Part shown: positions 5,182 to 51,880 of the stretch, in pieces
How positions within the stretch are numbered: position 1 is the first letter of the stretch
Layout of the letters: every line of letters begins with the position of its first letter
NCBI GenBank assembly: GCA_028279345.1
Contig: JANQNY010000078.1
Coordinates: forward strand, 1 to 64,000
Origin: Geminicoccaceae bacterium
GTDB lineage: Bacteria; Pseudomonadota; Alphaproteobacteria; Geminicoccales; Geminicoccaceae
DNA: 64,000 nucleotides
Direction: 5' to 3'
Notes under the pieces: model-generated
What the model was told of the DNA's origin: nothing
What the model saw: the letters and a program-made list of their open reading frames with translations, nothing else
The model's database searches: none
Translations under genes and position numbers: made by a program

Positions 5182-5283
5182 CGCCTGACGATTGGGGATG
5201 ACGCAACTCCGCTGCAACGTCCGCCTGTAGTGGGTCGCTAGTCGGGCACGGTGCACCGACCGGCGAGTTGCAGGAGGATCGGC

Positions 5284-5745: not shown

Positions 5746-5797
5746 CGACGTTGCCACAGCCGGAAGAAGATCGCGGCCAGGTACAGGAGCCCCACAT

Positions 5798-6190: not shown

Positions 6191-6262
6191 GCTTTAGGCG
6201 ACCGCTAAGGCGATGACCAATCGCACCGTCTCCTTGATCGCGTCGGAGCGCTGAGCTCGCGC

Positions 6263-7342: not shown

Positions 7343-7353
7343 GGAATCCTCCC

Positions 7354-8694: not shown

Positions 8695-8777
8695 TCTCAG
8701 ACCTCCCTCCGAGGGCCCCCGCTCTAGCGTGCAGTCGCGTGCTTGAACAGCATCCCGCCCGCGGCGACAACGGAGCG

Positions 8778-32146: not shown

Positions 32147-32755
32147 TCACGGCACTTGCAACGGCACGCGGCCGATCGGGATGGCCGGCGGCAGGCCCCA
32201 CTCGCGGCCGGCGTCTGAGAGTAGGCACCAGACATGATCGGCGTGCGAGCGCCGGACGAACAGGCGGAACACCGGGTCCTCTGCGGTGAGCCAAAGCCAG
32301 ATCGATGACTTGGCGAGCATCGTTGCGACAGCCGTGCCTGCGGCGAAGGCCCGCGGGTGCAGGTCGATAGTGACGAGCTTGGCGAGTAGGTTGCGAGCGT
32401 GGCGTCCGCCGATCTCGATCCCCGCATAGGCATCGCTAACGTCGACAAGCTGGTAGTGCTGTTCGGCGAGGCCGGCGCGCAGGCGCTCGCGCAACCGCGT
32501 CGGCTCCGCGGCGGTGATGAGGACCCATTCATCCGGACCCAGCCAAAGCGCTTCGAGGTCGTCGCCGATGCCGGTCGTTCCAACAGCTCGCGGGAGGTCG
32601 ACCCCGGTGGCGAGCCGGAACGGCTCGGCAGCGGCTTCCGGCTCACAGCGGAGGATCAAGAGGCCTGCGGGCGCGTGCTCGGCGAGCCGCGCCTCGTCGC
32701 CCACGACGATCGGGTCGCGGTGGCCCAAGGGTGTGCGTTCGACGGGTGCGCTCAC
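32147..32755 (-). CDS. soxG: Sarcosine oxidase subunit gamma
   Basis: The gamma subunit of heterotetrameric sarcosine oxidase, a GcvT-like small subunit of 202 residues that packs against alpha. Visible features are WLGPDEWVLI near residue 70, VDVSDAYAGIEIGG-ARNLLAK in the middle, and SSIWLWLT..FRLFVRRSHADHVW..L near the end. The GTG overlaps the soxA stop (GTGA), so the operon order soxB-D-A-G is kept with translational coupling. The complex oxidises sarcosine to glycine in the cytoplasm, passing the methyl group to tetrahydrofolate or releasing formaldehyde. Confidence 0.93.
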   Translation of the reverse strand: MSAPVERTPLGHRDPIVVGDEARLAEHAPAGLLILRCEPEAAAEPFRLATGVDLPRAVGTTGIGDDLEALWLGPDEWVLITAAEPTRLRERLRAGLAEQHYQLVDVSDAYAGIEIGGRHARNLLAKLVTIDLHPRAFAAGTAVATMLAKSSIWLWLTAEDPVFRLFVRRSHADHVWCLLSDAGREWGLPPAIPIGRVPLQVP

Positions 32756-35751
32756 GCTTCGCCCTGCTCGGCGGCGAGGAAATCCGGCGCACAGATGACG
32801 GCCGGGGCGGGCGACGCGCCGGCGCGAGCGACATAGACCGTCTGGCCCATGAGCCCGCGACCGCCCTCGACCAGCGCCAAGGCGATGGAGCGGTCGAGGT
32901 TGGGGCTGAAGTAGCTCGACGTGACGTGGCCCAGCATGGGTGTGCGCGGCTGCTGCTCGTTGGCCGTTTCGATGATCTGAGAGCCTTCCGGAATGACGAA
33001 GGCCGGGTCCTCCGTGCGCAGGCCCACGAGTTGGCGCCGGTCGTCGCGCGCCGTGTCGCTGCGGAAGAGCGAGCGGCGGCCGATGAAGTCGGCGCTCTTC
33101 TTCACCGCCCAGTCCATGCCGAGGTCGATCAGGGTCACGGTGCCGTCGGTGTCCTGCCCTGCGATGATGAAGCCCTTTTCGGCGCGGAGGAGATGCATAC
33201 CCTCGGTGCCGTAGGGTGTGATGCCGTAGGCGGCGCCACGCTCCATCAGCATGTTCCAGAGCCAGAGACCGTAACGCGTGGGCACGTTGATCTCGTAGGA
33301 CAGCTCGCCGGTGAAGGAGATGCGGAAGACCCGCGCCGGCACGCCCGCGACATGGCCCGTGCGGTGGGTCATGAACGGAAACGCGTCGGGGTCCGGATCG
33401 ATGTCGTCCAGAAGGTCCGCCATGAGCTGGGGCGCGAGCGGGCCGGAGATGGATGCGACCGCCCATTGCTCGGTCGCGGAGGTCAGATAGACCCGCAGCT
33501 CCGGCCACTCGGTCTGGAGATACTCTTCGAGCCAGCTCAGCACCTTTGCCGCACCACCGGTCGTCGTCGTCATGTGGAAGTGGTCGTCGGCGAGGCACGC
33601 GGTGACGCCGTCGTCGAAGACCATGCCGTCCTCGTTGAGCATGAGCCCGTAGCGGCAGCGGCCGGGCGCCAGCTTGAGCCAGGCGTTGGTGTAGACGCGG
33701 TTGAGGAAGGTCCGGGCATCGGGCCCGCGCACGTCGATCTTGCCCAGCGTCGACGCGTCGAGCACGACCACGCCCGTGCGCGCCGCCTTGCACTCGCGCA
33801 TCAGCGCATCATCGAAGCTCTCGCCAGGCGCCGGGTAGACGCGTGGGCGCAGCCAATCGCCCACCAGCTCGAACACCGCGCCGGCCTCGACATGGGCTTC
33901 GTGCATCGGCGTCGTGCGGCGCGGATGAAACAGCTCGCCGACATGCTGGCCGGCGACGGCACCGAAGCTCACCGGCTTGTAGGGCGGCCGGAAGGTCGTT
34001 ACGCCGACCTCGCCAATGGGCTTGTCGAGCGCCCGCGCGATGATCGCGAAGCCGTTGGTGCCCGAGGTTTTGCCCTGGTCGGTGCCCATGCCGAGCGTCG
34101 TGTAGCGCTTGGCCAGCTCGACCGACGCGTAGCCCTCCTGCACGGCGAGGTGCAGGTCCTTGGCGGTGACGTCGTCCTGCAGGTCGACGAAGGCGCGCGT
34201 CCGCGCTGGCGGCAACGCCGAGGGCAGCTCCCATGTCGGTTGGACGCTGTAGGTCTCGAAGCTCTCTACAGACGTTGTGGCGGGCGGCTGCGGCGCGGTG
34301 GTGTCCACGGCTGCGACAGCCTCGGCGAGCGCATCGGCGAGCGCGAATGTCCCGGTCGCGGCCCCGGCAACCTGCATGCCGCGGTGCGCGCCGGCCGGAC
34401 GGAAGGCCGCTATGGCGTCGTCGAAGACGAGCGCGCCGCCCGCCTGCGAGAACAGCGCGACGTTGGGCGACCAGCCGCCGGAGATGGCGAGCAGGTCGCA
34501 GTCGAAAGCCGCCTGATCGCCCCTGAGGCCACCTGCGCCGTCGAGCTTGGCGACGGTCACGCCGGCGACGCGGCGGCGGCCGCGGGTGGCGATGACGCCC
34601 GCACGGGCGTGGATCGGCATCTGGAGAGCCTGTGCGCGGGCGACAAGCTCGGCGCCAGGGGCCTCGCGCACATCCACGATTGCAGCAACCTCGGCACCGG
34701 CACTGGCGAGGTCGAAGGCCGTCTGCCAGGCGCCATCGTTGTTGGTGAAGACCACTGCGCGGCGACCGGCGAGCACGCCGTAGCGATGGAGGAACGTGCG
34801 CACGGCACCTGCCAGCATCACGCCAGGCCGGTCATTGCCGTGAAAGACGAGGGGGCGTTCGACGGCACCGGTCGCGAGCACCACGTGACCCGCGCGCACG
34901 CGCCAAAGCCGCTGGCGCGGCAGCCGGTCGTCGCGCTCTTCGGGGTGCAGATGGTCCTGCACGTCCTCGACGAGCCCGACCCAGTTGTCATCGTAGTGTC
35001 CGAACGCGCAGGTGCGCCGCAGCACCGTCACCTCGGGCAGCGCTGCGAGTTCCGCGGTGACGGCCTCGACCCACGCCCGGCCGGCTTGGCCCTCGATCAT
35101 CGAGCTGTCCGCGGCCTCGTTGAGGAGGCGACCGCCGAGATAGGGCGTCTCCTCGGCGAGGACGACGCGCGCGCCGCTCGCCGCGGCTGTTCGTGCCGCC
35201 GCGAGGCCCACCGGGCCGCCGCCGATCACAAGGACCTCGCAATGCCGGTTGACGTGCTCGTAGCGATCAGGGTCCGGCGCTTCCGGACACCGGCCGAGGC
35301 CCGCCGCGCGGCGGATCGTCGGCTCGAAGGTCATCCAGCTGCCGGGCGGGCCCATAAAGGTCTTGTAGTAGAAGCCTGAAGGCAGGAAGCGCGCCGCCAA
35401 GTCGTTGATCTCACCCACGTCGACCTGAAGCGACGGCCAGCAGTTCTGAGCGAAGGCCTCGAGGCCGTCCCAGAGTTCGAGCTCGGTGGCGCGCACGTTC
35501 GGGACGATCGTCGCCGGATCGCGGCCAACTTGCACGAGCGCCGCCGGGTCCTCGCTGCCGGCGCCGAGGATGCCGCGCGGGCGATGGTACTTGAAGCTGC
35601 GGGCCACCAGGTGGACACCATTGGCCAGCAGCGCCGAGGCGAGCGTGTCGCCGGCATAGCCCTGCATGGCCTTGCCGGCGAAGCTGAAGCGGATCGGCCG
35701 GCTCCGGTCGATGAGCCCGCCCTGTTCGAGGCGAAAGGGCTGGGCGCTCAC
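32752..35751 (-). CDS. soxA: Sarcosine oxidase subunit alpha
   Basis: The 999-residue alpha subunit carries NAD+ and tetrahydrofolate sites and helps bind FMN. From the N terminus: a 2Fe-2S-ferredoxin-like domain without iron ligands (FSFAGKAMQGYAGDTLASALLA), an NAD-binding domain with VLVIGGGPVGLAAARTAAASG near residue 175, and a C-terminal GcvT-type folate domain from about residue 600 (LDASTLGKIDVRGPDA, SFTGELSYEINVP). GTG at 35751 is used because it overlaps the soxD stop as GTGA and gives the standard SAQPFRLEQGGLIDR start. Confidence 0.96.
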   Translation of the reverse strand: MSAQPFRLEQGGLIDRSRPIRFSFAGKAMQGYAGDTLASALLANGVHLVARSFKYHRPRGILGAGSEDPAALVQVGRDPATIVPNVRATELELWDGLEAFAQNCWPSLQVDVGEINDLAARFLPSGFYYKTFMGPPGSWMTFEPTIRRAAGLGRCPEAPDPDRYEHVNRHCEVLVIGGGPVGLAAARTAAASGARVVLAEETPYLGGRLLNEAADSSMIEGQAGRAWVEAVTAELAALPEVTVLRRTCAFGHYDDNWVGLVEDVQDHLHPEERDDRLPRQRLWRVRAGHVVLATGAVERPLVFHGNDRPGVMLAGAVRTFLHRYGVLAGRRAVVFTNNDGAWQTAFDLASAGAEVAAIVDVREAPGAELVARAQALQMPIHARAGVIATRGRRRVAGVTVAKLDGAGGLRGDQAAFDCDLLAISGGWSPNVALFSQAGGALVFDDAIAAFRPAGAHRGMQVAGAATGTFALADALAEAVAAVDTTAPQPPATTSVESFETYSVQPTWELPSALPPARTRAFVDLQDDVTAKDLHLAVQEGYASVELAKRYTTLGMGTDQGKTSGTNGFAIIARALDKPIGEVGVTTFRPPYKPVSFGAVAGQHVGELFHPRRTTPMHEAHVEAGAVFELVGDWLRPRVYPAPGESFDDALMRECKAARTGVVVLDASTLGKIDVRGPDARTFLNRVYTNAWLKLAPGRCRYGLMLNEDGMVFDDGVTACLADDHFHMTTTTGGAAKVLSWLEEYLQTEWPELRVYLTSATEQWAVASISGPLAPQLMADLLDDIDPDPDAFPFMTHRTGHVAGVPARVFRISFTGELSYEINVPTRYGLWLWNMLMERGAAYGITPYGTEGMHLLRAEKGFIIAGQDTDGTVTLIDLGMDWAVKKSADFIGRRSLFRSDTARDDRRQLVGLRTEDPAFVIPEGSQIIETANEQQPRTPMLGHVTSSYFSPNLDRSIALALVEGGRGLMGQTVYVARAGASPAPAVICAPDFLAAEQGEA

Positions 35752-36032
35752 GCGCGGTCGGTCCACGGCCGGTCTTCACCCACGCGATAGACGGCAAGGA
35801 TCTCATCGGTTGCGGTGTCCCGCAGCGCGTTGAACCACTTGCGGCAGCCACCGCTGTGGCACCAGCGCTCGGCGAACACGCCCTTGGTGTTGCTGCGCAT
35901 GAAGACGAACTCGGCCCATTCGGCGTCGCTCAGCTGCTCCGGATGCTGAGGCCGGCTGATATGGGCTTCGCCGCCATTGGTGAACTCGGTCGGCTCGCGG
36001 GGGCCACAATAGGGACAGGTGATGCGGAACAT
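35748..36032 (-). CDS. soxD: Sarcosine oxidase subunit delta
   Basis: The small zinc-binding delta subunit, 94 residues. It starts with RITCPYCGPREPTEF (two zinc cysteines) and contains RWCHSGGCRKWFNALRDT (a further cysteine/histidine pair), the usual pattern for tetrameric sarcosine oxidase. Size and position between soxB and soxA are standard. The start lies 13 bases after the soxB stop. Confidence 0.94.
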   Translation of the reverse strand: MFRITCPYCGPREPTEFTNGGEAHISRPQHPEQLSDAEWAEFVFMRSNTKGVFAERWCHSGGCRKWFNALRDTATDEILAVYRVGEDRPWTDRA

Positions 36033-36045
36033 GCGTATCGCTCGA

Positions 36046-37302
36046 CTAGTGCGCCACGGCGGCGGCACCATGCTCGGCGACCAGCTTGCCGGTGGTGAAG
36101 CGCTCGAGCGTGTAGGGCGCCGCGATCTCGTTCGGGGCGTCGTTGGCCACGAGGTCGGCGAAGACGTGGCCCGAGCCCGGCGTCGCCTTCCACCCACCGG
36201 TGCCCCAGCCGCCATTGATGTAGAAGCCCCGGAGCGGCGTCTTCGAGATGATCGGGCTCGCGTCGGGGCAGATGTCGACGGTGCCTGCCCAGTGCCGCAT
36301 GAGCTTCATGCGCGAGAACTGCGGGAACAGCTCCAGGAGTGCGGCAATCTCCTCCTCGATGACGTGGAAGCCGCCGCGCTGGGTGTAGGACTGATGCAGG
36401 TCGATGCCGGCGCCGATGACCAGCTCCCCCTTGTCCGACTGGCTGCAATAGGCGTGCACGGCGTTCGACATGACCACGCAGGGGAGGATCGGCTTCACCG
36501 GCTCCGAGACGAGCGCCTGGAGCGGGTGGCTGACGATGGGTAGGCGCAGGTCCACCATGCTGGCGATGACGCTCGTATGCCCGGCGGTGACGCTCGCCAC
36601 CTTGGGTGTCTTGATGGTGCCGCGCGTGGTGCGCACGGCCGTGACGGCGCCACCGGCGACGTCGATGCCGAGCACCTCGCAGTTCTGCACGATGTCGACG
36701 CCGAGCCCGCTCGCCGCGCGTGCATAGCCCCAGACGACGGCGTCGTGCCGGTTGACGCCGCCCGAGCGCTGCAGCGTCGCGCCGATGACGGGGTAGCGGA
36801 CATTGTCTGAAATGTTGATCGGCGGGCAGAAGTCCTTCACCTGCCTGGCGTCGAGCCACTCGGCATCGACCCCGTTGAGCCGATTGGCCTCGACGCGGCG
36901 CTTGAGCTGGCGGGCCTCGCCGTCGTCGTGGGCGAGGTTCATGACGCCCCGATGGCTCATCATGATGTTGAAGTTCAGCTCGCGGCCCAGGTTGCGCCAG
37001 AGCTGCATGGCGTGGTCGTAGATGGCGGCACTGGCGTCGTAGAGATAGTTCGAGCGGATGATGGTGGTGTTGCGCGCGGCGTTGCCACCACCGAGCCAGC
37101 CCTTCTCCAGTACCGCGACGTTGGTGAGCCCGTGCTCCTTGGCCAGGTAGTACGCGGTGGCGCAGCCATGCCCGCCGCCGCCGATGACCACGGCATCATA
37201 GGCCTGCTTCGGTTCGGCATTGCGCCAGGCCGGCTGCCAGCCGCGATGGCCACCGATGCCCTCGCGCAGGAGCGACAAGAGCGAGTAACGTTGCGCCGTC
37301 AT
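36046..37302 (-). CDS. soxB: Sarcosine oxidase subunit beta
   Basis: The catalytic beta subunit, 418 residues, carrying FAD and covalent FMN. It opens [11 protein letters not shown], then the Rossmann motif [19 protein letters not shown] near residue 37, [22 protein letters not shown] near 65 and a late [30 protein letters not shown]. The ATG at 37302 gives the usual N terminus; an in-frame ATG nine codons earlier is less likely. It is the first gene of the soxBDAG operon, 90 bases downstream of the AraC-type regulator. Confidence 0.96.
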
Positions 37303-37392
37303 GGGTGGGTGACCGCTCTCCGACAGCATCGAACACTCATGACCGGCGCCGTCGACGTCGGCTGGCGAGATCCAGCCGGTGGTAGCTTCTCG

Positions 37393-38427
37393 CTAGCGCA
37401 CATTGTGGCTCGCGCGCGACATCCCTTTGCCTCCATGCGACACGCGTTCGTTCGGGACGCGCTCCATCTCCTGGCGTTCGTCCCGTGGCGAACGGTGGAA
37501 CGCCTCGCGGTAGCACCGCGCGAAGTGCGAGGCTGAGGAGAAGCCGGAAGCGACCGCTACTTGGATGACGGACATCGAGGTCTGCTTGAGCAAGAGCCGC
37601 GCGCGTTTGAGCCGCAGCTCCAGGTAGTAGCGCGAAGGCGTCGTCTTGAGCCGTTGCTTGAACAGCCGCTCGAGCTGGCGTGGTGACAGCTCGACGGCCT
37701 CGGCGACGTCGGCCAGCGGAACAGGGCTTTCGACATAGGCCTCCATATGCGCGATCGCGGCCAGGAGCTTCGGATGCGTGATGCCGGTTCGATACTGGAT
37801 GGGTAGGCGTTGTGGGTCGTGCGGGTGGCGGACCGAATGGTGCAGCAGGAACTCGGCGACCTGTACGGCCAGATCTTCGCCGTGGGCGAGACCGATCCAG
37901 CTCAGCATCATGTCCATCGGCGCTGTGCCGCCCGAGCAGGTGTAGCGATCACGGTCGATCTCGAAGAGCGTCGCCGTGATGTCGAGGTCCGGGAAGACCT
38001 CGACGAACCCTTCGACGTTCTCCCAGTGCAGCGTGCAGCGATAGCCGTCGAGCACGCCCGCACGCGCAAGCGCAATGGTGCCGGTGCAGACACCGCCGAG
38101 CCCCACACCGTGCCTGGCAAGCTCGCGCAGGCGCTGCGCCACCCGCGCGTCATCGAAATGCTCCGCACCCAGGCCCGCGCAGACGAGGAGCGTTCCCGCC
38201 TTGCCGGTGTCGCGAAGCGCCGCGCCCGGCACAACGGTGACACCGTTGCTGGCGGTTACGGGTGCGCCGTCCACGCTGAAGGTCCGCCACCGGTAGAGCG
38301 TTCGCCCCGCCAGCTGGTTGGCGGCCCGCAACGGCTCCACGACCGACGCGAACGCCATCATCGAAAAGTTGGGCAGTATAAGGAGATCGATATCTGTGGT
38401 GGTTTCCGGCTGTTCAGTACCGGTCAT
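37393..38427 (-). CDS. GlxA/GbdR-type transcriptional regulator (DJ-1 domain plus AraC HTH)
   Basis: The 344-residue protein joins an N-terminal DJ-1/PfpI-like ligand domain (LLILPNFSMMAFASVVEPLRAANQ; GGVCTGTIALARAGVLDG near residue 112) with a C-terminal AraC helix-turn-helix pair (VAEAVELSPRQLERLFKQRLKTTPSRYYLELRLKRAR, then VAVASGFSSASHFARCYREAF). This is the arrangement of GbdR, which senses glycine betaine and dimethylglycine, and of SouR, which senses sarcosine. Its position directly before soxBDAG and divergent from the demethylase operon argues that it controls both. Confidence 0.93.
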   Translation of the reverse strand: MTGTEQPETTTDIDLLILPNFSMMAFASVVEPLRAANQLAGRTLYRWRTFSVDGAPVTASNGVTVVPGAALRDTGKAGTLLVCAGLGAEHFDDARVAQRLRELARHGVGLGGVCTGTIALARAGVLDGYRCTLHWENVEGFVEVFPDLDITATLFEIDRDRYTCSGGTAPMDMMLSWIGLAHGEDLAVQVAEFLLHHSVRHPHDPQRLPIQYRTGITHPKLLAAIAHMEAYVESPVPLADVAEAVELSPRQLERLFKQRLKTTPSRYYLELRLKRARLLLKQTSMSVIQVAVASGFSSASHFARCYREAFHRSPRDERQEMERVPNERVSHGGKGMSRASHNVR

Positions 38428-38771: not shown

Positions 38772-40133
38772 ATGATCGAAGCTCCTACGGCCAACGTGAC
38801 CGACCCGGCTGTCGTGACGGCACGCTCGCTGGGTGCCCAGGTCACTTCCATCGACCAGTCGGACCGACGCGTGCCGATCAATCTCAGGCAGAGCGGACGG
38901 ACGCCGGTGGAGATGCTGATCTCGACGCGGGTTCGGAAATCTCCCTACTGGCATCTCTCGATCGAAGCGGGCTGCTGGCGCTGCACGGTCTACAATCGCA
39001 TCTACCATCCGCGCGGCTATGTGCGTCCCGAGGACGGCGGCGCCATGGTCGAGTACGATGCGCTCGTCAACCACGTCACCATGTGGAACGTCGCCGTCGA
39101 GCGACAGATTTGCGTCAAGGGCCCGGACGCCGAGGCGTTCGTGAACTACGTCATCACCCGCGACGCCACGAAGATCCAGCCGATGCACGGCAAGTACGTC
39201 ATCCTCTGCAATGAGGCCGGAGGCATCCTCAACGACCCGGTGCTGCTGCGGCTCAGTGAGGACGAGTTCTGGTTCTCCATCTCCGACAGCGACCTCGAGT
39301 TCTGGCTGAGGGGCGTGAATGTCGGCATGGGCTTCGACGTCACGATCGGCGAGATCGACGTGGCGCCGGTGCAGATCCAGGGGCCCAAGTCGGAAGCCCT
39401 CATGGTCGACCTGTTCGGCGAGCAGGTGCGCGACATTCCCTACTACGGACTGATGCGCGGCCAGGTGGCCGGGCGTGATGTCGTCGTCTCGCAGACCGGC
39501 TTCACGGGCGAGAAGGGTTACGAAATCTACCTGATCGACGCGACGCGCTACGCCGAAGACATGTGGTACGCGGTGCTCGAGGCCGGCAAGGCGCACAGTC
39601 TCATGGTCATCGCGCCGGCGCATCACCGGCGGATCGCGGCCGGCATACTCTCCTGGGGGCAGGACATCGACAGCGAGACGCTGCCCTTCCAGTGCAACCT
39701 GGCCTACCAGGTGCCGCGTAAGAAGGAGGCCGACTACATCGGCAAGCAGCGCTTGGAAGCGGTGCGCGCGCAGATCGAGGCCGGCCAGCCGCCGTTCAAG
39801 AACCGCATGGTGGGGATCGCGTTTGGTGGCCGGCCGGTCACGGACTATGCGCCGGACTTCTGGCTGATCTCAGAGACGCCGGCGAGCGATCCGATCGGCT
39901 ATGTGACGTCGCCCTGGTACTCGCCCGAGCTCGAGACGAACATCGCGCTCGCGTGGGTCGCCAACGACTACACAGCACTCGGCACCGAGCTGTGCGTCTG
40001 GTTGCCGGAGGAGTATGCCGAAGTGACCGGCAAGCCTGCCGAAGGGCGCGTCGTGGAGGTGCCCTTCCGCCCCTCCGTCAATCCGAATGCACGCGAATTG
40101 GCCAAGGAGCAGGGTCGGGACTTCGCCTACTGA
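38772..40133 (+). CDS. DmdA/GcvT-family tetrahydrofolate-dependent demethylase
   Basis: A 453-residue aminomethyltransferase-fold protein. The segments YNRIYHP, DALVNHVTMWNVAVERQICVKGPDAEAF, GGILNDPVLLRLSEDEFWFSISDSD, VAPVQIQGPKSEALM and GFTGEKGYEIYL follow the order seen in DMSP demethylase DmdA, although this protein is about 80 residues longer. Such enzymes move a methyl group from sulfur, oxygen or nitrogen to tetrahydrofolate. Its neighbours, a MetF-like reductase and formate-THF ligase, are the pair expected to oxidise 5-methyl-THF, as in the ligM-metF-ligH cluster of Sphingobium. The donor substrate is unknown. Confidence 0.85.
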   Translation: MIEAPTANVTDPAVVTARSLGAQVTSIDQSDRRVPINLRQSGRTPVEMLISTRVRKSPYWHLSIEAGCWRCTVYNRIYHPRGYVRPEDGGAMVEYDALVNHVTMWNVAVERQICVKGPDAEAFVNYVITRDATKIQPMHGKYVILCNEAGGILNDPVLLRLSEDEFWFSISDSDLEFWLRGVNVGMGFDVTIGEIDVAPVQIQGPKSEALMVDLFGEQVRDIPYYGLMRGQVAGRDVVVSQTGFTGEKGYEIYLIDATRYAEDMWYAVLEAGKAHSLMVIAPAHHRRIAAGILSWGQDIDSETLPFQCNLAYQVPRKKEADYIGKQRLEAVRAQIEAGQPPFKNRMVGIAFGGRPVTDYAPDFWLISETPASDPIGYVTSPWYSPELETNIALAWVANDYTALGTELCVWLPEEYAEVTGKPAEGRVVEVPFRPSVNPNARELAKEQGRDFAY

Positions 40134-40154: not shown

Positions 40155-41048
40155 GTGCACGTCGTCGGCGCCGCATCGCCGTTCGCGGCAGCGCGCGCCG
40201 AACTCTTGGCGGACGTGTCGATCGAAGCGACGCCGCATCAGGTCGAGCGCTCGATAGCGGGACTAGCCCGACATGTTCCCGGCGCAGAGGTCTATGTCAC
40301 CGCGCTGCCCGGCGCGCATGCTGAGCTGAGCGTCGATGCGATCCGCCGCCTGGCGGCGGCAGGCTTGCGTCCGGTCCCGCACATCGCGGCGCGCGGGATC
40401 GCCGGGCCTGCAGCCCTCGATGACCGCCTCGGCCGTTATGTCGAAGCGGGCGCCGACGCCATCCTCTTGGTCGCGGGCGACCTCTCGCGGCCGGCGGGAC
40501 GGTTCGCCAGCACGCTCGACGTGATGGCGACGGGGCTGCTGGAGCGCCACGGCGTGCGGCGGGTCGGGGTGGCCGGGCATCCGCAGGGCCATCCGATCGC
40601 CGACGCGGCAGCGCTGGAGGCGGCGCTGCGGGCGAAGGCGGCCTACGCCGCAACGACCGACGCAGAGATGTGGCTGGTCACGCAGTTCGCCTTCGAGCCT
40701 TCACCAGTCTTGGCTTGGCACGCAGGGCTCGTGGCGCAAGAGCTGGCGCTGCCCGTCCGGGTTGGACTACCGGGACCGGCGAAGCCACGAACGTTGCTCG
40801 CCTATGCGATGCGCTGCGGTGTCGGGGTCTCCTCGCGGCTCCTGGCGCGGCGTCCGGATGCGCTCAGGCTGTTCGGGCGCTGGGCGCCCGACGACCTGCT
40901 CGAAGCGCTAGCCGCCCATCGCGCCGAGCAGCCCCGTAGCCAGTTGGGCGCACTACATCTGTTTCCCTTCGGCGGCATCGACGCATCGCTCGAATGGCTC
41001 GAGCGACACCGTCTAGCCGCCGGTATGGCGTCAGCGGAGGTATCGTGA
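40155..41048 (+). CDS. MetF-like methylenetetrahydrofolate reductase
   Basis: The 297-residue protein has the MetF barrel pattern: [11 protein letters not shown] near residue 24 (family Glu), VTALPGA in the second strand, [11 protein letters not shown] near 77, [16 protein letters not shown] near 100 (D for FAD/ribityl contact), [10 protein letters not shown] and an [13 protein letters not shown] segment in which the Q-F pair is conserved. It is divergent from housekeeping MetF. Between a demethylase and fhs it probably runs in the oxidising direction, 5-methyl-THF to 5,10-methylene-THF. GTG follows GGGGGAG; the stop overlaps fhs (TGATG). Confidence 0.85.
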
Positions 41049-42811
41049 TGAACGGTGTGGCCGAGGCTCCGCAACGTCCGGTGGCGCGCTTAGCGCCCAT
41101 GGCCCTGCCGGTGGAGGACGACCGCTTGCCGCCGCCGGGTTCGCCCGATCTCGACATTGCGCGCGCTGCGACCATGCAGCCGATCCTCTCCTTGGCGGAG
41201 GAGGCACTCGGCATTCCCGCCGACGGGCTCGTTCCCTTCGGCCACTATAAGGCCAAGCTGACGCAGGCCTTCACCAGCTCGCTCGACGCGCGCCCGCGCG
41301 GCAAGCTCGTCCTGGTGACGGCGATGACACCGACGCCGGCGGGCGAAGGCAAGACCACAACAAGCGTTGGCCTGAGCGACGGCCTCAACCGGCTCGGCGT
41401 AAGGTCGATGGTGTGCCTGCGCGAACCGTCGCTCGGGCCCTGCTTCGGCATGAAGGGTGGTGCCGCAGGCGGCGGCAGGTCGCAGGTGCTGCCGATGGAG
41501 GACATCAACCTCCACTTCAACGGCGATTTCCACGCCGTCACGGCCGCGCACAACCTACTGGCCGCGATCCTCGACAATCACCTGCACTGGGGCAACGAGC
41601 TGGGGATCGATTGGCGGCGCGTGTCGTGGCGTCGGGTGCTCGACATGAACGACCGCGCTCTTCGCGACGTGGTCGCGGGCCTAGGTGGCGCTGCCCACGG
41701 CGTGCCCCGCGAGACCGGCTTCGATATCACCGTTGCTTCCGAGGTCATGGCGATCCTCTGCCTGGCTGAGGACCTGGAGGATCTGCAGCGTCGGCTCGCC
41801 CGCATGGTCGTCGCCCGCCGCCGCGACGGTAGCCAAGTCACCGCCGGCGATCTCCAGATCCACGGCGCCATGGCGGTGCTGCTCAAGGACGCGTTCCTGC
41901 CCAATCTCGTGCAGAGCATCGAGCACAACCCGGCCTTCATCCACGGCGGCCCATTCGCCAATATCGCGCATGGCTGCAACTCGCTGATGGCGACCAAGTC
42001 GGCACTGGCGCTCAACGACGTTGTGGTGACCGAAGCGGGCTTCGGCGCCGATCTGGGTGCCGAGAAGTTCTTGGACATCAAGTGCCGGCAGTCGGGACTT
42101 CGGCCGGATGCCGTGGTGCTCGTCTGCACCCTGCGCGCGCTCAAGATGCAGGGCGGCACACCGAAGTCGGCGCTCGGTACGCCCGCGCCCGAGGCCGTTC
42201 GTCGGGGCTCCGTCAACCTCCGCCGCCACGTCCGAAATCTCGCCCGCTTCGGGCTCAAGCCGGTGGTTGCCGTGAACGCCTTCATGGGCGACAGCGAGGC
42301 GGAGCTCGACGTCGTCAGGCCCGTCTGTGCCGAGCTCGGTGTCACCGCGGTCGACGCGCGGCATTGGGCCGAGGGCGGGGTTGGCGCCGAGCGCCTCGCA
42401 GCGGCCGTCCTGTCCAGCCTTGAGGGTGAAGCGCCCGAGGTGAAGCTATTGTACAGTAACGGATTGCCGCTGGCCGAAAAGGTGCGGACCGTCGCTACGC
42501 AACTCTACGGCGCGCGCGACATCGCCGTGAGTCCGCTCGCCGAGCGCGCGTTCACGAGCATGGAAGCGGAGGGCTATGGCGAGCTGCCCGTGTGCGTTGC
42601 CAAGACGCAGTACAGCTTCGCTGCCGATCCAACGCTCCTGGGCGCACCCGAGGATCACGTGTTGCCGGTGCGCGAGGCCCGGCTCGCAGCCGGTGCCGGG
42701 TTCGTCGTCGCCATCTGCGGTGACATCATGACCATGCCAGGCCTACCGTCCCGCCCTGCGGCGCTCGACATCGGGCTCGACGCGTCTGGCGATATCGTCG
42801 GGCTTTCCTAG
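41048..42811 (+). CDS. fhs: Formate--tetrahydrofolate ligase
   Basis: Fhs interconverts formate, ATP and THF with 10-formyl-THF. At 587 residues it carries a slightly long N terminus, then [15 protein letters not shown], the P-loop [17 protein letters not shown] near residue 98, GLREPSLGP-like [41 protein letters not shown], and a C-terminal [17 protein letters not shown]. The ATG at 41048 follows CGGAGG. In this context it likely runs in reverse, releasing formate and ATP for the downstream formate dehydrogenase. Confidence 0.96.
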
Positions 42812-43666
42812 GTGCACGCGGCAGCATTCCGCCGCTGGGAACCGGAGCAGTCGCCCGAAGCGCTGAGTAGGGCGTTGTTCGAGGGCGAGCTGGTTGTGTT
42901 CGAAGGGCGGCGTATCGCCCAGGCGCTGCGCGCCCATGCCGTCGCGATGGTCGAAGCCGCGTTCGGCGATGAGCCGGAGCGAGCTGAGTGGCGCATGAGC
43001 GCCGCGGCGTTTCGGCAAGCGGCGCTCGAGGTCCGCAAGACGGTCGAAGCGGATCCGACGATCCAACAGTTGTGGCGCCGTTTCCTCGTCGAAGTCGGCT
43101 ACGCGGACGACGACGTGCTCTGCGACCGGCTCAGGCTCCGAGCCGTTCCGGCGCGGCGCGACACGGATGGCCGTCTGGCGCGCCCGCTGCCGGTTCACCG
43201 TGATACCTGGGCGTCGGGTATCACGGCCCAAGTGAACTGGTGGATGCCGCTCTACCCGTTGGCCCGGGAGCAGACGATGGTGCTATGGCCGGCGCTGTTC
43301 GCCACGCCGGTGCCCAACACGGCCGCCGAGTGGGACTACGACGCGGCGCGCACGCAAAGGGGCTATCCGCTGCTGCCCGAGGCAATGGCGACGCCGTCGC
43401 GCGAACCGGTCGCGGTGGTGATCGAGCCGGGCACGGTGCTGGCCTTCTCGGGCGCGCATCTGCATGCAAGCCGCAGTGAGGGCGCCGAGCGCGCACGGTT
43501 CAGCCTGGACACGCGCACCGTCTGGCAGCCCGATGTCGACGCAGGGCGCGGCGCTCCCGACGTCGATGGTGCTGGACGGGCGCCGCGTTGGGAGATGTTC
43601 GAACGCACGGCGACAGGGCGTGGTCATAGAGCCGAGCGGAGCGCGAGCTTGGGAGACGCGAGATGA
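42812..43666 (+). CDS. PhyH-like Fe(II)/2-oxoglutarate dioxygenase family protein
   Basis: A 284-residue protein that I assign by fold motifs only. VHRDTWASGI near residue 128 offers the H-x-D metal pair, VNWWMPLYPL follows as in phytanoyl-CoA-dioxygenase-like enzymes, and HLHASRSEGAERARFSLDTR near 222 supplies the distal histidine and a 2-oxoglutarate-binding arginine. The GTG starts directly after the fhs stop, and the stop overlaps the next gene (ATGA), so it is an integral member of the C1 operon. An oxidative demethylation or hydroxylation of the pathway substrate is the obvious guess. Confidence 0.72.
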   Translation: MHAAAFRRWEPEQSPEALSRALFEGELVVFEGRRIAQALRAHAVAMVEAAFGDEPERAEWRMSAAAFRQAALEVRKTVEADPTIQQLWRRFLVEVGYADDDVLCDRLRLRAVPARRDTDGRLARPLPVHRDTWASGITAQVNWWMPLYPLAREQTMVLWPALFATPVPNTAAEWDYDAARTQRGYPLLPEAMATPSREPVAVVIEPGTVLAFSGAHLHASRSEGAERARFSLDTRTVWQPDVDAGRGAPDVDGAGRAPRWEMFERTATGRGHRAERSASLGDAR

Positions 43667-46098
43667 AGGATCAGGCCAGGGTGCTGGTCATCGGTGGCGG
43701 GGTCGTGGGTGTCTCCACTCTCTACCATCTCGCCAAGAAAGGTTGGTCGGACGTGGTCCTCATCGAGCGGAAAGAGCTGACGTCCGGCTCGACTTGGCAC
43801 GCCGCCGGCCTCTTGCCACTCTTCAACATGAGCTACTCGGTGGGCCAGATCCACAAGTACTCGGTGGGCCTCTACGGCGAGCTCGAGGCCGAAACCGGGC
43901 AGAATGTCGGCTTAAAGCGCTGCTCCAACATCCGCCTCGCCACGACCCGCGACCGCATGGACGAGTACCACCAATATGCCGGCGTCGCGCGCACGATCGG
44001 CGTGCAAGTCGACTTCCTCTCACCGACTCAAGTGCAAGAGATTTGGCCCTTCGCCGTCACCGACGGCCTTATTGGCGCGATCCGTCATCCTGAGGATGGC
44101 TACATCCAGCCCGCCGACCTGACCCAGGCTTTGGCCACCGGCGCCCGGGCGCTGGGTGCCACGATCCACCGCCAGACGACGGTGACGGCTATCCGCCAGA
44201 AGCCGGGCGGCGAGTGGGTCGTCACCACGGACAAGGGTGAGATCACCTGCGAGCACGTGGTTTCGGCGACTGGCAATTTCGCGCGCCGAACGGGCGCGAT
44301 GGTGGGCCTCGACATTCCGGTCGTCCCGGTCGAGCACCAGTTCATCGTCACCGAGCCGCACGCGGCCATCCAGGAGCGGAAAGCCCAGGGTTTGCCCGAA
44401 CTCGGCGTGCTCCGCGAGAGCGACGGCTCCTGGTACATGCGCGAGGAGAATGGCGGGCTGCTGCTCGGACCCTACGAGGTGGGTGCACCAGCCTGCTATG
44501 TCGACGGGCCCGATGCCGACAGCGAGTACGAGCTGTTTCAGGAGGATGTCGACCGACTGGCGCCGCACATCGAAAGCGCCATCCACCGCGTGCCCATCTT
44601 CGGCGAGTTGGGCATCAAGGAGGTCTACAACGGCGCCATCGCCTACACACCTGACGGCAGCCCCATCATCGGACCGGCCTGGGGCAAGCGTAACTTCTGG
44701 CTCAACGAGGGCCACAGCTTCGGGATCACGGCCGCCGGTGGCGCCGGATGGCAGCTCGCCGAATGGATCGTCGAGGGCGAGCCCACGATCGACATGCTCG
44801 GCGTCGACCCCAGGCGCTTCGGCGACTACGCGTCCGAGGCCTACCTCAAGACCAAGAACGAAGAGGCCTACGCCAACGTCTTCACCGTCCACTACCCGGA
44901 CGAGGAGCGGCCCGCCGCGCGGCCGCTCAGGACGGCGCCCTGCTACGAGCGGATGCGCGATCTGGGGGCCGTGTTCGGCCAGAAGTTCGGCTGGGAACGC
45001 CCCAACTGGTTCGCGCCCAAGGGCGTGCCGGCCGAGGACCACTGGTCGTTCCGCCGCTCACGCTGGTTCGAGCATGTCGGCGACGAGTGCCGCAACGTGG
45101 CCGACAATGTGGGTCTCTTGGACATGACGGCCTTCGCCAAGGCGCGCGTCTCCGGGCCCGGTGCGGCGGCTTGGCTCGATGGCCTGGTCGCCAACAAGCT
45201 GCCGGCACGCGTGGGGCGCATAGCCCTCGCGCATGGGCTCACCACCCGCGGCGGTGTTCACTCCGAGTTCACGATCTTCCGCGAGGCCGAGGACAGCTTC
45301 TACCTGGTGTCCGCCGGCGCGTTGCAGCGGCTGGATCATGACTGGCTCAGGAAGCAGCTGTCTGGCGATGGGTCGGTCCAGCTCGAGAATTTGACGACCT
45401 CGATGGGAGTGCTGGTCGTTGCTGGCCCCAACAGCCGAAACCTCCTCGAACGGGTCTGCGGCGCCGATCTCTCGAACGCTGCATTCCCTTGGCTCACTGG
45501 CCAGGACACGACCGTTGGCCTGGCGCCCGCCCGCCTGCTGCGCGTCAACTTCGTCGGCGAGTTGGGCTGGGAGATCCACCACGGAATAGAGTTCCAGAAC
45601 CACATCTTCGATGCCCTGATGGAGGCCGGCCGCGACCTCGACCTTCAGCCGTTCGGCATTCGCGCGATGGATTCGCTGCGCATCGAGAAGTCGTATCGTA
45701 TGGTCGGAACCGAACTGTCGATCGAGTATGCGGCCCTCGAGTCCGGGCTCGACCGGTTCGTGCGGCCCGACAAGGGCGACTTCGTCGGCCGGGAGGGGCT
45801 GCTTGCCTGGCGCGAGCGCGGCTTCGCCAATGCCTTCGCGACGCTGGAGGTCACCGGTCACAACGAGGCCGACCCCTTGGGGAACAACCCGATCTACCTT
45901 GATGGCGAGCTGGTGGGCCGCGCCACCGGCGGCAATTTCGGCTTTCGCGTCGGCAAGTCCTTGGCGCTGGCCATGCTGCGACCGGACCTCGCGGTTGCCG
46001 GCGGCGCCTTTGCCATGGACGTGCTCGGCACCACCTGTACCGCAACGGTCGTTCCGGAGAGCCCCTATGATCCGGAGAACTCCAGGTTGCGCGCCTGA
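43663..46098 (+). CDS. Dimethylglycine/sarcosine dehydrogenase-like FAD-THF enzyme
   Basis: An 811-residue two-part enzyme. Residues 1-400 form a DAO-type FAD domain with VLVIGGGVVGVSTLYHLAKKG and SGSTWHAAGL, where His46 is the predicted covalent FAD attachment; residues about 430-811 form a GcvT-like folate domain with GLLDMTAFAKARVSGPGA, RVNFVGELGWEIHH and SYRMVGTELSIEYAALE. Such enzymes oxidatively demethylate dimethylglycine or sarcosine and give methylene-THF. The natural substrate here could be another N-methyl compound. It is the fifth gene of the rightward C1 operon. Confidence 0.92.
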   Translation: MKDQARVLVIGGGVVGVSTLYHLAKKGWSDVVLIERKELTSGSTWHAAGLLPLFNMSYSVGQIHKYSVGLYGELEAETGQNVGLKRCSNIRLATTRDRMDEYHQYAGVARTIGVQVDFLSPTQVQEIWPFAVTDGLIGAIRHPEDGYIQPADLTQALATGARALGATIHRQTTVTAIRQKPGGEWVVTTDKGEITCEHVVSATGNFARRTGAMVGLDIPVVPVEHQFIVTEPHAAIQERKAQGLPELGVLRESDGSWYMREENGGLLLGPYEVGAPACYVDGPDADSEYELFQEDVDRLAPHIESAIHRVPIFGELGIKEVYNGAIAYTPDGSPIIGPAWGKRNFWLNEGHSFGITAAGGAGWQLAEWIVEGEPTIDMLGVDPRRFGDYASEAYLKTKNEEAYANVFTVHYPDEERPAARPLRTAPCYERMRDLGAVFGQKFGWERPNWFAPKGVPAEDHWSFRRSRWFEHVGDECRNVADNVGLLDMTAFAKARVSGPGAAAWLDGLVANKLPARVGRIALAHGLTTRGGVHSEFTIFREAEDSFYLVSAGALQRLDHDWLRKQLSGDGSVQLENLTTSMGVLVVAGPNSRNLLERVCGADLSNAAFPWLTGQDTTVGLAPARLLRVNFVGELGWEIHHGIEFQNHIFDALMEAGRDLDLQPFGIRAMDSLRIEKSYRMVGTELSIEYAALESGLDRFVRPDKGDFVGREGLLAWRERGFANAFATLEVTGHNEADPLGNNPIYLDGELVGRATGGNFGFRVGKSLALAMLRPDLAVAGGAFAMDVLGTTCTATVVPESPYDPENSRLRA

Positions 46099-46200: not shown

Positions 46201-46653
46201 ATGACGGACTGGGACGTGGGCGCAGCATTCGAGGTGGTGCAGCAGCATCGGCAAAAGGGCGGGCTGCTCGGGGCTCTGCACGGCCTTCTCGACGCGTTCG
46301 GCTATGTCGATCCCCGCGCGATCCCGATGGTTGCCGACGTCTTCAACCTCACGCGCGCCGAGGTCACCGGCGTCGTCTCGTTCTACAAGGACTTCCGCAC
46401 CACACCGCCGGGCCGACACGTGCTGAAGCTCTGCCGCGCCGAGGCCTGCCAGGCGGTCGGCTGCGAAACGGTGGCTCAAGAGCTGGAGACGCGCCTCGGG
46501 GTCGGCGCGGACGCCACCACCGCCGACGACGCGGTCACCGTTGAGACCGTCTACTGCCTGGGCAATTGCGCGCTCGGTCCCGCGGCCCTCGTCGACGGCA
46601 AGCTCTACGGCCGCGTCGATGCGCCAAGCTTGCTCGCGAGGCTTGGAAGATGA
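46201..46653 (+). CDS. fdsG: NAD-dependent formate dehydrogenase, gamma (NuoE-like) subunit
   Basis: The 150-residue subunit carries one [2Fe-2S] cluster of thioredoxin-like ferredoxin type: LCRAEACQAVGC (C-x4-C) near residue 80 and YCLGNCALGPA (C-x3-C) near 120. The N-terminal helical part with GLLGALHGLLDAFGYVDPRAI is as in NuoE/FdsG. It lacks a clear ribosome-binding site at the ATG used. It is the first gene of fdsGBA-fdhD, separated from the dehydrogenase-like gene by about 100 bases. Confidence 0.94.
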   Translation: MTDWDVGAAFEVVQQHRQKGGLLGALHGLLDAFGYVDPRAIPMVADVFNLTRAEVTGVVSFYKDFRTTPPGRHVLKLCRAEACQAVGCETVAQELETRLGVGADATTADDAVTVETVYCLGNCALGPAALVDGKLYGRVDAPSLLARLGR

Positions 46654-48209
46654 GCGCTGCCCGCATCTTCGTGCCCGCGGATGCCGCCGCGCTATCGGTC
46701 GGGGCGCATGAGGTGGCCAGAGCCGTGCGGGCCGAAGTGGAGCGACGTGAGCTCGACGTCGAGCTGGTGCGGACCGGCTCGAGGGGGCTCTTCTGGCTCG
46801 AGCCGCTGGTCGAGCTGGAGGCGCCTGAAGGTCGGATCGGCTTCGGTTCGCTCACGCCCGACGACGTGCCGGCGCTGTTCGACGACGAGGTCCACCCAAA
46901 GGCGCTCGGCCGGGTCGAAGAGCTGCCCTGGCTCGCGCGCCAGGAGCGGGTGACATTCGCCCGGTGCGGCGTCATCGACCCGCTGGATCTCGAAGACTAC
47001 GAGCGCCATGGTGGCCTCGGGGGCCTGCGCCGGGCGCTCGAGCTGACACCGGCTGAGATCGTCGAGGCGGTGACGGAGTCCGGGCTGAGGGGGCGCGGTG
47101 GCGCTGGTTTCCCCGCCGGCATCAAATGGCGGACCGCGGCGGCGACCGAGGCGGACGCGCGCTACGTCGTCTGCAATGCCGATGAAGGCGACAGCGGTAC
47201 CTTCGCCGACCGCATGCTGATGGAAGGCGATCCGTTCCTGCTGATCGAAGGGATGGTCATCGCGGGCATCGCCATCGGCGCGCGTCAGGGCGTCATCTAC
47301 CTCCGCTCCGAATACCCGCATGCCCACCGCAAGCTTGCCCGAGCGTTGGCGCTCGCTCGCGCCGAGGGTCTGCTCGGCGCCAGCGTGCTCGGCTCGGGCC
47401 AGGCCTTCGACATCGAGCTGCGGCTGGGCGCGGGTGCTTACATCTGCGGTGAGGAAACCTCGCTGCTGGAGAGCCTCGAAGGCAAGCGCGGCCAGGTGCG
47501 GGCGAAGCCACCGCTGCCGGCGATCGCCGGGCTCTTCGGGCGCCCCACCATCGTCCACAACGTCCTGACGCTCGCCGCCGTGCCGACCATTCTGGCCGGG
47601 GGCGCCGAGTTCTATCGTGCGTTCGGCACGGGCCGCTCGCGTGGCACGATGCCCATCCAGCTCGCCGGCAATGTCCGCCATGGCGGGCTCATCGAGTTGC
47701 CGTTCGGCCTGACGCTTCGTGAGATTGTCGAGGACTATGGCGGCGGCACCCGCACCGGCCGGCCGGTCCGTGCCGTCCAGGTGGGTGGCCCATTGGGCGC
47801 ATACTGGCCTGAAGCGCTGTTCGACACGCCCCTCGACTACGAGGCGTTCGCCGAGCGCGGCGGGATGGTCGGCCATGGCGGCGTGGTCGTCTTCGACGAT
47901 ACCGTCGATCTGGCGCGGCAGGCGCGATTCGCGTTCCAATTCTGCGCGGAGGAGAGCTGCGGCAAATGCACGCCGTGCCGGATCGGCACGCTGCGCGGTG
48001 CAGAGACGATCGACCGAATCATCCAGGGTGAGCGCGTCGCGGCCAACCTCGCGCTCGTCGAGGATCTCTGTGAGGTCTTGCGCGACGGCTCATTGTGTGC
48101 GCTCGGTGGGCTCACCCCGGTGCCGGTCGAGAGCGCGATCCGGCATTTCCCCGAGGACTTCGAGCGAGCCGCGACCAGGGAGGCGGTCCATGGCGAAGCG
48201 ATCGGTTGA
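46650..48209 (+). CDS. fdsB: NAD-dependent formate dehydrogenase, beta (NuoF-like) subunit
   Basis: The 519-residue flavin subunit passes electrons from the iron-sulfur chain to NAD+. It has a thioredoxin-like N-terminal domain, the NADH/FMN motifs SGLRGRGGAGFPAGIKW and CNADEGDSGTFADRMLMEG, YICGEETSLLESLEGKRG, and the [4Fe-4S] ligands in EESCGKCTPCRIG plus a cysteine near residue 485. The ATG overlaps the fdsG stop. Confidence 0.95.
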   Translation: MSAARIFVPADAAALSVGAHEVARAVRAEVERRELDVELVRTGSRGLFWLEPLVELEAPEGRIGFGSLTPDDVPALFDDEVHPKALGRVEELPWLARQERVTFARCGVIDPLDLEDYERHGGLGGLRRALELTPAEIVEAVTESGLRGRGGAGFPAGIKWRTAAATEADARYVVCNADEGDSGTFADRMLMEGDPFLLIEGMVIAGIAIGARQGVIYLRSEYPHAHRKLARALALARAEGLLGASVLGSGQAFDIELRLGAGAYICGEETSLLESLEGKRGQVRAKPPLPAIAGLFGRPTIVHNVLTLAAVPTILAGGAEFYRAFGTGRSRGTMPIQLAGNVRHGGLIELPFGLTLREIVEDYGGGTRTGRPVRAVQVGGPLGAYWPEALFDTPLDYEAFAERGGMVGHGGVVVFDDTVDLARQARFAFQFCAEESCGKCTPCRIGTLRGAETIDRIIQGERVAANLALVEDLCEVLRDGSLCALGGLTPVPVESAIRHFPEDFERAATREAVHGEAIG

Positions 48210-51024: not shown

Positions 51025-51880
51025 TGACGAGCGGGCGCTCCTCGCGGCTCCCGCAGCGCCGACGACCGTCACAGCATCGATCACGCGCTTGGCCCGCGAC
51101 CGAGAGCCTGCCGCCGAGCGCGACGATCTCGCGGTGGAGACGCCGGTAGCACTCCGTTTCAACGACCGAAACCACGTCGTGATGATGGCGAGCCCGGCCG
51201 ACCTCGTCGATTTCGCCTACGGCTTCGCACTCAGCGAGGGGATCGTCACCGACGTCCGGGAGATCGAGGCGGTCGTCGCGAGCCCCCGCCCGGAGGGCGT
51301 CAGCCTCTCCATCCGTATCCCCACAGCGCGCGCGCAGGCGTTGGCTGCGCGTGAGCGCAACCTAGCCGGCCGGACCGGTTGCGGTGTCTGCGGCGTCAGC
51401 GAGATCGCCGCCGTGCTCCGCCCCCTGCCGCGGATCGAATCGGGGGCACGCGTGTCTGCGGCCGCCATCGATCGCGCCGTCTTGGCGCTGCCGGCGCTGC
51501 AGACGCGCAACCACCCATGCGGCGCGCTACATGCTGCGGCCTTTGCGGACCGGGACGGAACGGTGCGGCTGGTGCGCGAGGATGTCGGCCGGCACAACGC
51601 GCTCGACAAGCTCATCGGCGCGCTCACGCGCGCGAGCATCGATGCGGCCACCGGCTTCATCGTCGTCACGAGCCGTTGCAGCATGGAGATGGTGCAGAAG
51701 GCCGCGAGCTGCGGCTGTGCGGTCTTGGTCGCGGTCTCGGCGCCCACGGCGTTGGCGGTCGAACTCGCCGAGCAGGCCGGGCTCACGGTCTCTGGCCTCG
51801 CCCGCGGCGCCGGCTGCAATCTCTACAGCCACCCCGAACGCATCGATACGGCCGAGGCAGGGCCGGCTCGTTTGGACTAA
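50981..51880 (+). CDS. fdhD: Formate dehydrogenase accessory sulfurtransferase FdhD
   Basis: FdhD moves sulfur from the cysteine desulfurase to the molybdenum cofactor, which is required for formate dehydrogenase activity. The 299-residue protein shows LAVETPVALRFND, YGFALSEGIVT, the sulfur-carrying pair in TGCGVCG near residue 133, REDVGRHNALDKLIG near 205 and VVTSRCSMEMVQKAA. It overlaps fdsA by 44 bases. Its stop and that of the convergent cyclase share a 13-base inverted repeat, GGACTA-A-TAGTCC. Confidence 0.95.
   Translation: MSGDGATGSTSRPADDERALLAAPAAPTTVTASITRLARDREPAAERDDLAVETPVALRFNDRNHVVMMASPADLVDFAYGFALSEGIVTDVREIEAVVASPRPEGVSLSIRIPTARAQALAARERNLAGRTGCGVCGVSEIAAVLRPLPRIESGARVSAAAIDRAVLALPALQTRNHPCGALHAAAFADRDGTVRLVREDVGRHNALDKLIGALTRASIDAATGFIVVTSRCSMEMVQKAASCGCAVLVAVSAPTALAVELAEQAGLTVSGLARGAGCNLYSHPERIDTAEAGPARLD

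Follow-up and report, generated by a model that had tools for sequence, protein, structure and literature searches.

The locus and its genes

The DNA analysed here (the window) is a stretch of 64,000 nucleotides from a Geminicoccaceae bacterium. As originally described, its positions 38772-40133 contain a forward-strand open reading frame that starts with ATG and encodes a protein of 453 amino acids. This gene and its neighbours were assigned as follows, with the supporting matches in brackets.

32147..32755, minus strand: SoxG-like gamma subunit, C-terminal part of ORF 32147-33793, borders approximate (tblastn: gene right after SoxA in related loci)
32752..35766, minus strand: SoxA, sarcosine oxidase alpha (TIGR01372, 1362.8 bits, cut-off 1164)
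35748..36215, minus strand: SoxD, sarcosine oxidase delta, homologous part about 35750-36023 (TIGR01374, 121.3 bits, cut-off 116.5)
36046..37329, minus strand: SoxB, sarcosine oxidase beta (TIGR01373, 644.7 bits, cut-off 529)
37393..38427, minus strand: GbdR-like AraC-family regulator with a DJ-1/PfpI domain (NF052371 GbdR, 380.3 bits, cut-off 480, next best 144.6)
38772..40133, plus strand: DmdA-like long demethylase, proposed glycine betaine:THF methyltransferase (GCV_T and GCV_T_C; DmdA model 259.5 bits; own clade)
40155..41048, plus strand: divergent MetF-like 5,10-methylene-THF reductase, proposed to oxidize 5-methyl-THF (PDB 7xg9, 156.7 bits; NCBIfam fadh2, 19.9 bits)
40994..42811, plus strand, true start probably near 41042: Fhs, formate-THF ligase (NF010030, 833.9 bits, cut-off 652)
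42812..43666, plus strand: PhyH-like (Fe/2-oxoglutarate dioxygenase-like) protein (PhyH, 20.0 bits, just below the cut-off of 22)
43663..46098, plus strand: dimethylglycine dehydrogenase (DMGDH), 811 aa (full-length match to rat DMGDH 4p9s, 613 bits)
46201..46653, plus strand: formate dehydrogenase gamma, NuoE-like (NF004638, 182.7 bits, cut-off 198)
46566..48209, plus strand, true start probably near 46650: formate dehydrogenase beta, NuoF-like (nuoF_fam, 423 bits)
48209..51024, plus strand, homologous part of ORF 47719-51024, start approximate: formate dehydrogenase alpha (TIGR01591, 911 bits, cut-off 666)
50981..51880, plus strand: FdhD, formate dehydrogenase accessory protein (TIGR00129, 193.9 bits, cut-off 140.9)

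The gene for the GbdR-like regulator (the model's name is choline metabolism regulator) and soxBDAG are divergent from the series formed by the demethylase, metF, fhs, PhyH-like, DMGDH and formate dehydrogenase genes. The DmdA-like gene is therefore encoded together with dimethylglycine and sarcosine catabolic genes, as expected of a glycine betaine demethylase. Judging from these assignments, the window holds the enzymes required once glycine betaine has been demethylated, with the exception of FolD, but none of the established ones for the first step, for which the DmdA-like gene is the only candidate left there.

The original prediction had placed metF and fhs beside the gene, and both are indeed there, the metF-like gene being followed on the same strand by fhs. 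It had also described the setting as that of LigM-type O-demethylases, a description that fits these two genes but not the other neighbours, which belong to glycine betaine catabolism, nor the protein itself, which scores very low against the LigM and DesA models (see below). The resemblance is only superficial, because metF and fhs are of use to every pathway with 5-methyl-THF as its product, whereas the GbdR-like regulator, DMGDH, soxBDAG and formate dehydrogenase genes indicate glycine betaine.

Three further observations concern the window. The MetF-like protein has no Pfam match and possibly represents a catabolic MetF subfamily travelling with the long demethylase. The PhyH-like ORF, here between fhs and the dimethylglycine dehydrogenase gene, is also found next to the demethylase gene elsewhere (L056, L059, L066, L074, L100 and L103); its product could assist betaine or choline metabolism as an accessory oxygenase. 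Genes for cobalamin biosynthesis (cobT, cobB, cbiE/cbiT and others) lie at positions 4168-13944, about 25 kb from the demethylase gene.

The protein and its relation to DmdA

The 453-residue protein has the GcvT fold, with the Pfam domains GCV_T (130.8 bits) and GCV_T_C (37.4 bits) and the folate-site residues of the superfamily, and is closest to DmdA in both sequence and predicted fold. Its top NCBIfam model was that of DmdA (NF009133), at 259.5 bits versus a cut-off of 410, and the models for TMAO demethylase, GcvT and SoxA ranked behind it at 115-158 bits. The NCBIfam cut-offs for GcvT were missed (155.3 vs 300 and 130.6 vs 235.85 bits), as were those of the LigM/DesA models NF047885 (29.8 vs 580 bits) and NF047633 (47.8 vs 800 bits). 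Among PDB sequences, the top match was DmdA 3tfh (160 bits), the enzyme of Ca. Pelagibacter ubique.

The gene had been described as DmdA-like but about 80 residues longer, and this was confirmed: 3TFH has 369 residues, 84 fewer than our protein. The extra length consists of an N-terminal extension of ~42 residues, short internal insertions and a C-terminal extension. A stretch near the N-terminus, 'DQSDR-VP-NLRQSGPTPVEMLISTRVRKSPYWHLS', is conserved in the long form, with the invariant core 'DQSDR-VP-NLRQSG', and its first part has no DmdA counterpart. The gene is far beyond a chance ORF, since the full-length form recurs at 55-85% identity, with at least 587 confirmed relatives in one genome scan.

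The AlphaFold model of the protein had a mean pLDDT of 75.8, with residues 1-54 and some loops, including those of the donor site, poorly modelled; at the donor site it is too poor for a substrate argument from the pocket. Its best match was again DmdA 3TFH (Foldseek E 2.9e-33, TM 0.87 on the target), for which VIA gave a Z of 37.2 and an rmsd of 2.8 over 359 residues. By the same measure human DMGDH tied with 3TFH within about 1 Z unit, and LigM reached a Z of 25.

A careful maximum-likelihood analysis of 39 sequences grouped the long family into one clade, supported at 100/100 for 16 of its 17 rows; adding the basal row L025, at 55% identity, lowered the support to 88/71. DmdA occupied a separate clade (100/98) that excludes the long family. 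A quick 68-row tree that included LigM, GcvT and the SoxA/DMGDH domains agreed, with a support of 99 for the long family and with the LigM rows on a very long separate branch, not grouped with it. The suggestion of a distinct THF-dependent branch was thus upheld: the protein belongs to a clade of its own outside DmdA, GcvT, SoxA/DMGDH and LigM, and is very probably THF-dependent. It was placed in neither the DmdA nor the GcvT clade, and the substrate residues of DmdA are not all conserved in it.

The 39-sequence tree also contained an uncharacterized DmdA-like clade of ~380 aa ('FGFGTQIRKSPYFDATVRWGA'), which grouped with DmdA. Its members (L026, L028, L031-L033, L035, L042, L044-L046, L048 and L049) score below the DmdA cut-off where scored, and the clade is common in Alphaproteobacteria.

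The alignment attested to the retention of the folate residues and of the active-site Asp: D155, S169, Y142, E251 and Y253 are equivalent to D108, S122, Y95, E204 and Y206 of DmdA. At the donor site, W171 (= W197 of 3TFH) has been named a key residue for DMSP (PMC7487153). The W197 position is an invariant Phe (F244) in the long family, and in the above-cut-off DmdA rows it is Tyr or Trp, Tyr accounting for half. Further invariant or nearly invariant changes with respect to DmdA are R194 to Q241, L37 to H79, A39 to R81, L236 to H284, E238 to R286 and Y247 to W295. Of the changed residues, F244, Q241, H79, H284, R286 and W295 are predicted to help form the donor site. Going by these aligned residues, the donor pocket of the long family differs from that of DmdA, in line with the different methyl donor proposed at the outset (W197 to F244 and R194 to Q241 in particular), although the changes alone name no donor.

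In sum, DmdA and the long family share the fold, the THF-binding residues, the active-site Asp and the expected redox-neutral methyl transfer to THF, but the long protein differs in length, clade, donor-site residues, model score and gene neighbours. The C-terminal folate domains of GcvT, SoxA and DMGDH likewise share the fold and the folate site; however, they serve amine oxidation or glycine cleavage, with 5,10-methylene-THF chemistry, and lie on a separate tree branch. LigM and DesA are similar in length to the long family and share with it the THF acceptor as well as metF and fhs as neighbours, but the sequence similarity is very weak, and their substrates and remaining neighbours are different.

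Spread of the long family and its gene settings

The long family is tight, and its members occur well beyond the Geminicoccales. Whole-genome searches found the gene in two more Geminicoccales genomes (84% and 64% identity), in 17 further genomes of Alphaproteobacteria at 65-83% and one at 55% (the matches there also include shorter relatives), in other Proteobacteria, and on haloarchaeal plasmids at 55-67%. The at least 587 confirmed relatives came from a scan of 84,980 species genomes. The best 80 of them include, within Proteobacteria, Marinobacter, relatives of Halomonas, Rhodospira, HIMB59-type bacteria, Pelagibacteraceae and SAR86, and, in other phyla, Gemmatimonadota, Nitrospinota, Latescibacterota and the Actinomycetota Brevibacterium, Leucobacter and Arthrobacter. 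In G058, G060 and G150 the long gene occurs alongside a DmdA above the cut-off; since a true DmdA coexists in these three genomes, the long gene is not the DmdA of these organisms.

The gene setting was assessed on 80 named loci, which became 52 after collapsing the HIMB59-type and Marinobacter sets; 33 of these had at least 7 kb on both sides. A gene for a DMGDH/DMGO-type flavoprotein was found nearby in 24 of the 33, metF or fhs in 20, a GbdR-like gene in 9 and soxB in 8, so that 28 loci had at least one partner gene and five had none. Our rough estimate for a random locus is a few per cent, given the few such genes in a 4-Mb genome and a span of 20 kb. The partner flavoproteins are full-length homologues of DMGDH or dimethylglycine oxidase in Proteobacteria, Brevibacterium and Haloarcula; the latter two match dimethylglycine oxidase 1PJ5 over the full length, with 530 and 585 bits.

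Other neighbours vary among the lineages. Loci of Actinomycetota add etfBA, glyA, folD and purU (the last three seen in Arthrobacter), and haloarchaeal plasmids add metF, folD, glyA and a threonine/serine ammonia-lyase gene, with a BCCT transporter gene accompanying folD and metF on one of them. A choline dehydrogenase-like neighbour occurs in four loci. In the SAR11-like genomes G325 and G236, there is an overlap of a few bases between metF and the long gene, and a DMGDH 71-73% identical to that of the window is encoded 4-8 kb away; in G190 a DMGDH gene comes after the long gene, with one small opposite-strand ORF in between. Neither DMSP genes nor aromatic-catabolism genes were recurrent among the neighbours in the related loci, and MTTB or B12-binding domains matched at most 1 of the 93 other flanking proteins.

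Rieske oxygenase genes were also seen in some of these loci. In two SAR11-like loci a gene for the alpha subunit is divergent from the metF-demethylase pair (L175, 10332-11525, plus strand; L176, 10261-11487, plus strand), and on the Haloarcula plasmid pHMA411 another lies near the long gene (L136, 20028-21164, plus strand; 132 bits to the GbcA model, cut-off 670).

A gene of the SAR11 bacterium Ca. Pelagibacter seems to belong here. SAR11_1265 has been described as a gcvT-like aminomethyltransferase related to DmdA, its substrate unassigned since 2011, and is adjacent to metF (SAR11_1264), with dmgdh as SAR11_1253 (PMC3160333). This order resembles that of G325 and G236, where the family member has metF and DMGDH nearby, and SAR11_1265 is probably of the same family as the long demethylase, the orthology of this HTCC1062 gene being drawn from gene order. 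In sulfur-limitation samples of Ca. Pelagibacter, SAR11_1265 was down 10-fold and metF 5- to 8-fold, and bhmT was up to 33-fold up (PMC5069961). Such opposite changes suit two enzymes competing for glycine betaine, and other readings too.

As for the established first-step enzymes, a domain search of the window's genome returned no Ring_hydroxyl_A, the Rieske oxygenase catalytic domain, implying that GbcA is absent there. Among 41 carrier genomes, five passed the GbcA cut-off, and 37 of the 44 carriers in Marinobacteraceae were without GbcA. Nevertheless, mutual exclusion was not found: of 163 Marinobacteraceae genomes, 44 carried the long gene and 14 GbcA, and seven had both versus 3.8 expected, a result that led us to reject GbcA exclusion as proof of replacement. 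In M. iranensis, GbcAB is encoded in a cluster of its own with GbdR, serine genes and sox genes (L183). The GbcA proteins of Marinobacteraceae score either about 810 or about 715 bits, and the demethylase co-occurs only with the lower-scoring class (7/10 vs 0/4; the comparison set G870, G888, G909 and G918 against G849, G851, G899, G914, G922 and G947-G949).

The cut-off of the BHMT model NF005718 was passed in 1 of the 41 carriers, a nearly uninformative figure because the PF02574 genes of SAR11-like bacteria with reported Bhmt also fall below it; for this reason the model was rejected as a test of BHMT absence. Contig C77 of the window's genome carries a 383-aa PF02574 (BHMT/MtgE-like) gene (L133, 9412-10560, plus strand; 116 bits, BHMT cut-off 338), which from its family assignment could be Bhmt or MtgE. 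Divergent from it is the gene for a second DMGDH-like flavoprotein (L133, 6900-9323, minus strand), beside an ABC transporter set. Finally, glycine betaine supports the growth of Arthrobacter sp. Rue61a, in which the first step of its breakdown was reported as incomplete (PMC3534580). Two Arthrobacter genomes, both other than Rue61a, carry the long gene.

A proposed first step of glycine betaine breakdown

For THF to be methylated with no oxidation involved, the donor is expected to be either an onium compound or an aryl methyl ether, as in the chemistry of DmdA and LigM, and the enzymes for dimethylglycine and sarcosine deliver 5,10-methylene-THF. Next to a dimethylglycine dehydrogenase, the natural donor would be glycine betaine. 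Gene context may thus narrow the donor class, initially left as N-, S- or O-linked, to compounds with a quaternary N-methyl group, glycine betaine being the most likely of them. Consequently, we think that the gene probably encodes a THF-dependent glycine betaine demethylase, which would convert glycine betaine and THF to N,N-dimethylglycine and 5-methyl-THF.

The reaction would be DmdA-type chemistry on a trimethylammonium donor, with redox-neutral transfer of the onium methyl to N5 of THF. For DmdA itself, methyl transfer is redox-neutral and the C1 unit arrives as 5-methyl-THF (PMC5395565); a C1 unit arriving in this form makes sense of a catabolic metF, whose product would oxidize 5-methyl-THF to 5,10-methylene-THF. 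Dimethylglycine would be converted to sarcosine by dimethylglycine dehydrogenase and then to glycine by SoxBDAG, each step adding 5,10-methylene-THF. FolD and Fhs, the latter working in reverse, would release formate with a gain of ATP, and the NAD-linked formate dehydrogenase would oxidize formate to CO2. Induction would probably depend on the GbdR-like regulator.

Other readings of the locus have to be weighed against this one. It is rather unlikely, but still deserves consideration, that the protein is a THF-dependent demethylase of another onium compound in or beside the pathway (stachydrine, carnitine, beta-alanine betaine or choline), or one of broad specificity: the donor pocket is known only as different from that of DmdA, SAR11-like genomes and Haloarcula encode Rieske oxygenases of unassigned betaine type close by, and GbcA is present in some carriers. 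However, the partner that recurs is an enzyme for dimethylglycine, the compound that glycine betaine demethylation would supply, and the adjoining regulator is GbdR-like. We regard it as improbable that a BHMT-like protein or MtgBCD performs the first step and that the long protein plays a side role in folate C1 metabolism, as a C1 sensor or in transfer from a minor donor. The PF02574 gene beside the second DMGDH-like gene on C77 would fit such an arrangement, as would the betaine-binding residues that SAR11 Bhmt is reported to retain (PMC12478193); yet it would leave unexplained why metF, fhs and DMGDH accompany the gene in different phyla and why residues of active-site type are so strictly conserved, and the near absence of MTTB and B12-binding domains from the flanking proteins also argues against it.

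A role in DMSP breakdown, either as an unusual DmdA or in a second demethylation as speculated for SAR11_1265 (PMC3160333), has a very low probability in our judgement. DmdA is the closest characterized relative, and under DMSP limitation SAR11_1265 and metF decreased (PMC5069961), but the protein scores below the DmdA cut-off and outside its clade, Trp197 and Arg194 are replaced by an invariant Phe and by Gln, a true DmdA coexists in three genomes, and DMSP genes do not recur among the neighbours. Moreover, the gene is common in soil Actinomycetota and haloarchaea, and a thioether methyl would presumably be a poor donor to THF. Plain DmdA was rejected on model score, tree and donor-site residues. 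To an aryl O-demethylase of the LigM/DesA kind we assign next to no probability: the metF and fhs neighbours and the length (453 vs about 460-475 aa) are compatible with it, but the model scores, the very long separate branch of LigM, the VIA Z of 25 vs 37 for DmdA and the lack of recurrent aromatic-catabolism neighbours are not, and a LigM-type O-demethylase was rejected on scores, tree, neighbours and structure match.

GcvT-fold THF demethylases are a known mechanism class; for the favoured glycine betaine demethylase, the substrate and the pathway role would be new. PMC12478193 (PNAS, September 2025) gives GbcAB, Bhmt and the cobalamin-dependent MtgBCD as routes of aerobic glycine betaine demethylation, with only SAR11 proposed to use a single enzyme, Bhmt. 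These routes have in common with ours the proposed product, dimethylglycine, and the downstream genes for dimethylglycine and sarcosine enzymes, but GbcAB (O2), Bhmt (homocysteine) and MtgBCD (cobalamin) are unrelated proteins, whereas the long family would transfer the methyl directly to THF. In the passages searched and in its Discussion, that paper describes no THF-direct glycine betaine demethylase, and in the open-access literature searched we found no description of a direct DmdA-type, THF-dependent one.

We lean, with some caution, towards a fourth aerobic first step of betaine breakdown, in which a single protein would pass the methyl straight to THF, dispensing with cobalamin, O2 and homocysteine, in SAR11-like bacteria, HIMB59, SAR86, Marinobacter, Actinomycetota and haloarchaea; SAR11 would then not depend on Bhmt alone. 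Glycine betaine is among the most abundant osmolytes of the sea and a very common cell-protecting solute. If the proposal is correct, marker-gene surveys would have missed the breakdown of betaine by SAR11-like bacteria, Gammaproteobacteria, Actinomycetota and haloarchaea, the carriers including ocean bacteria, soil bacteria and salt-loving archaea. Their first step on betaine would need neither vitamin B12 nor oxygen, and the methyl groups would be gained as folate C1 units. The GcvT fold would acquire a nitrogen counterpart of DmdA, and SAR11_1265 would be offered a substrate.
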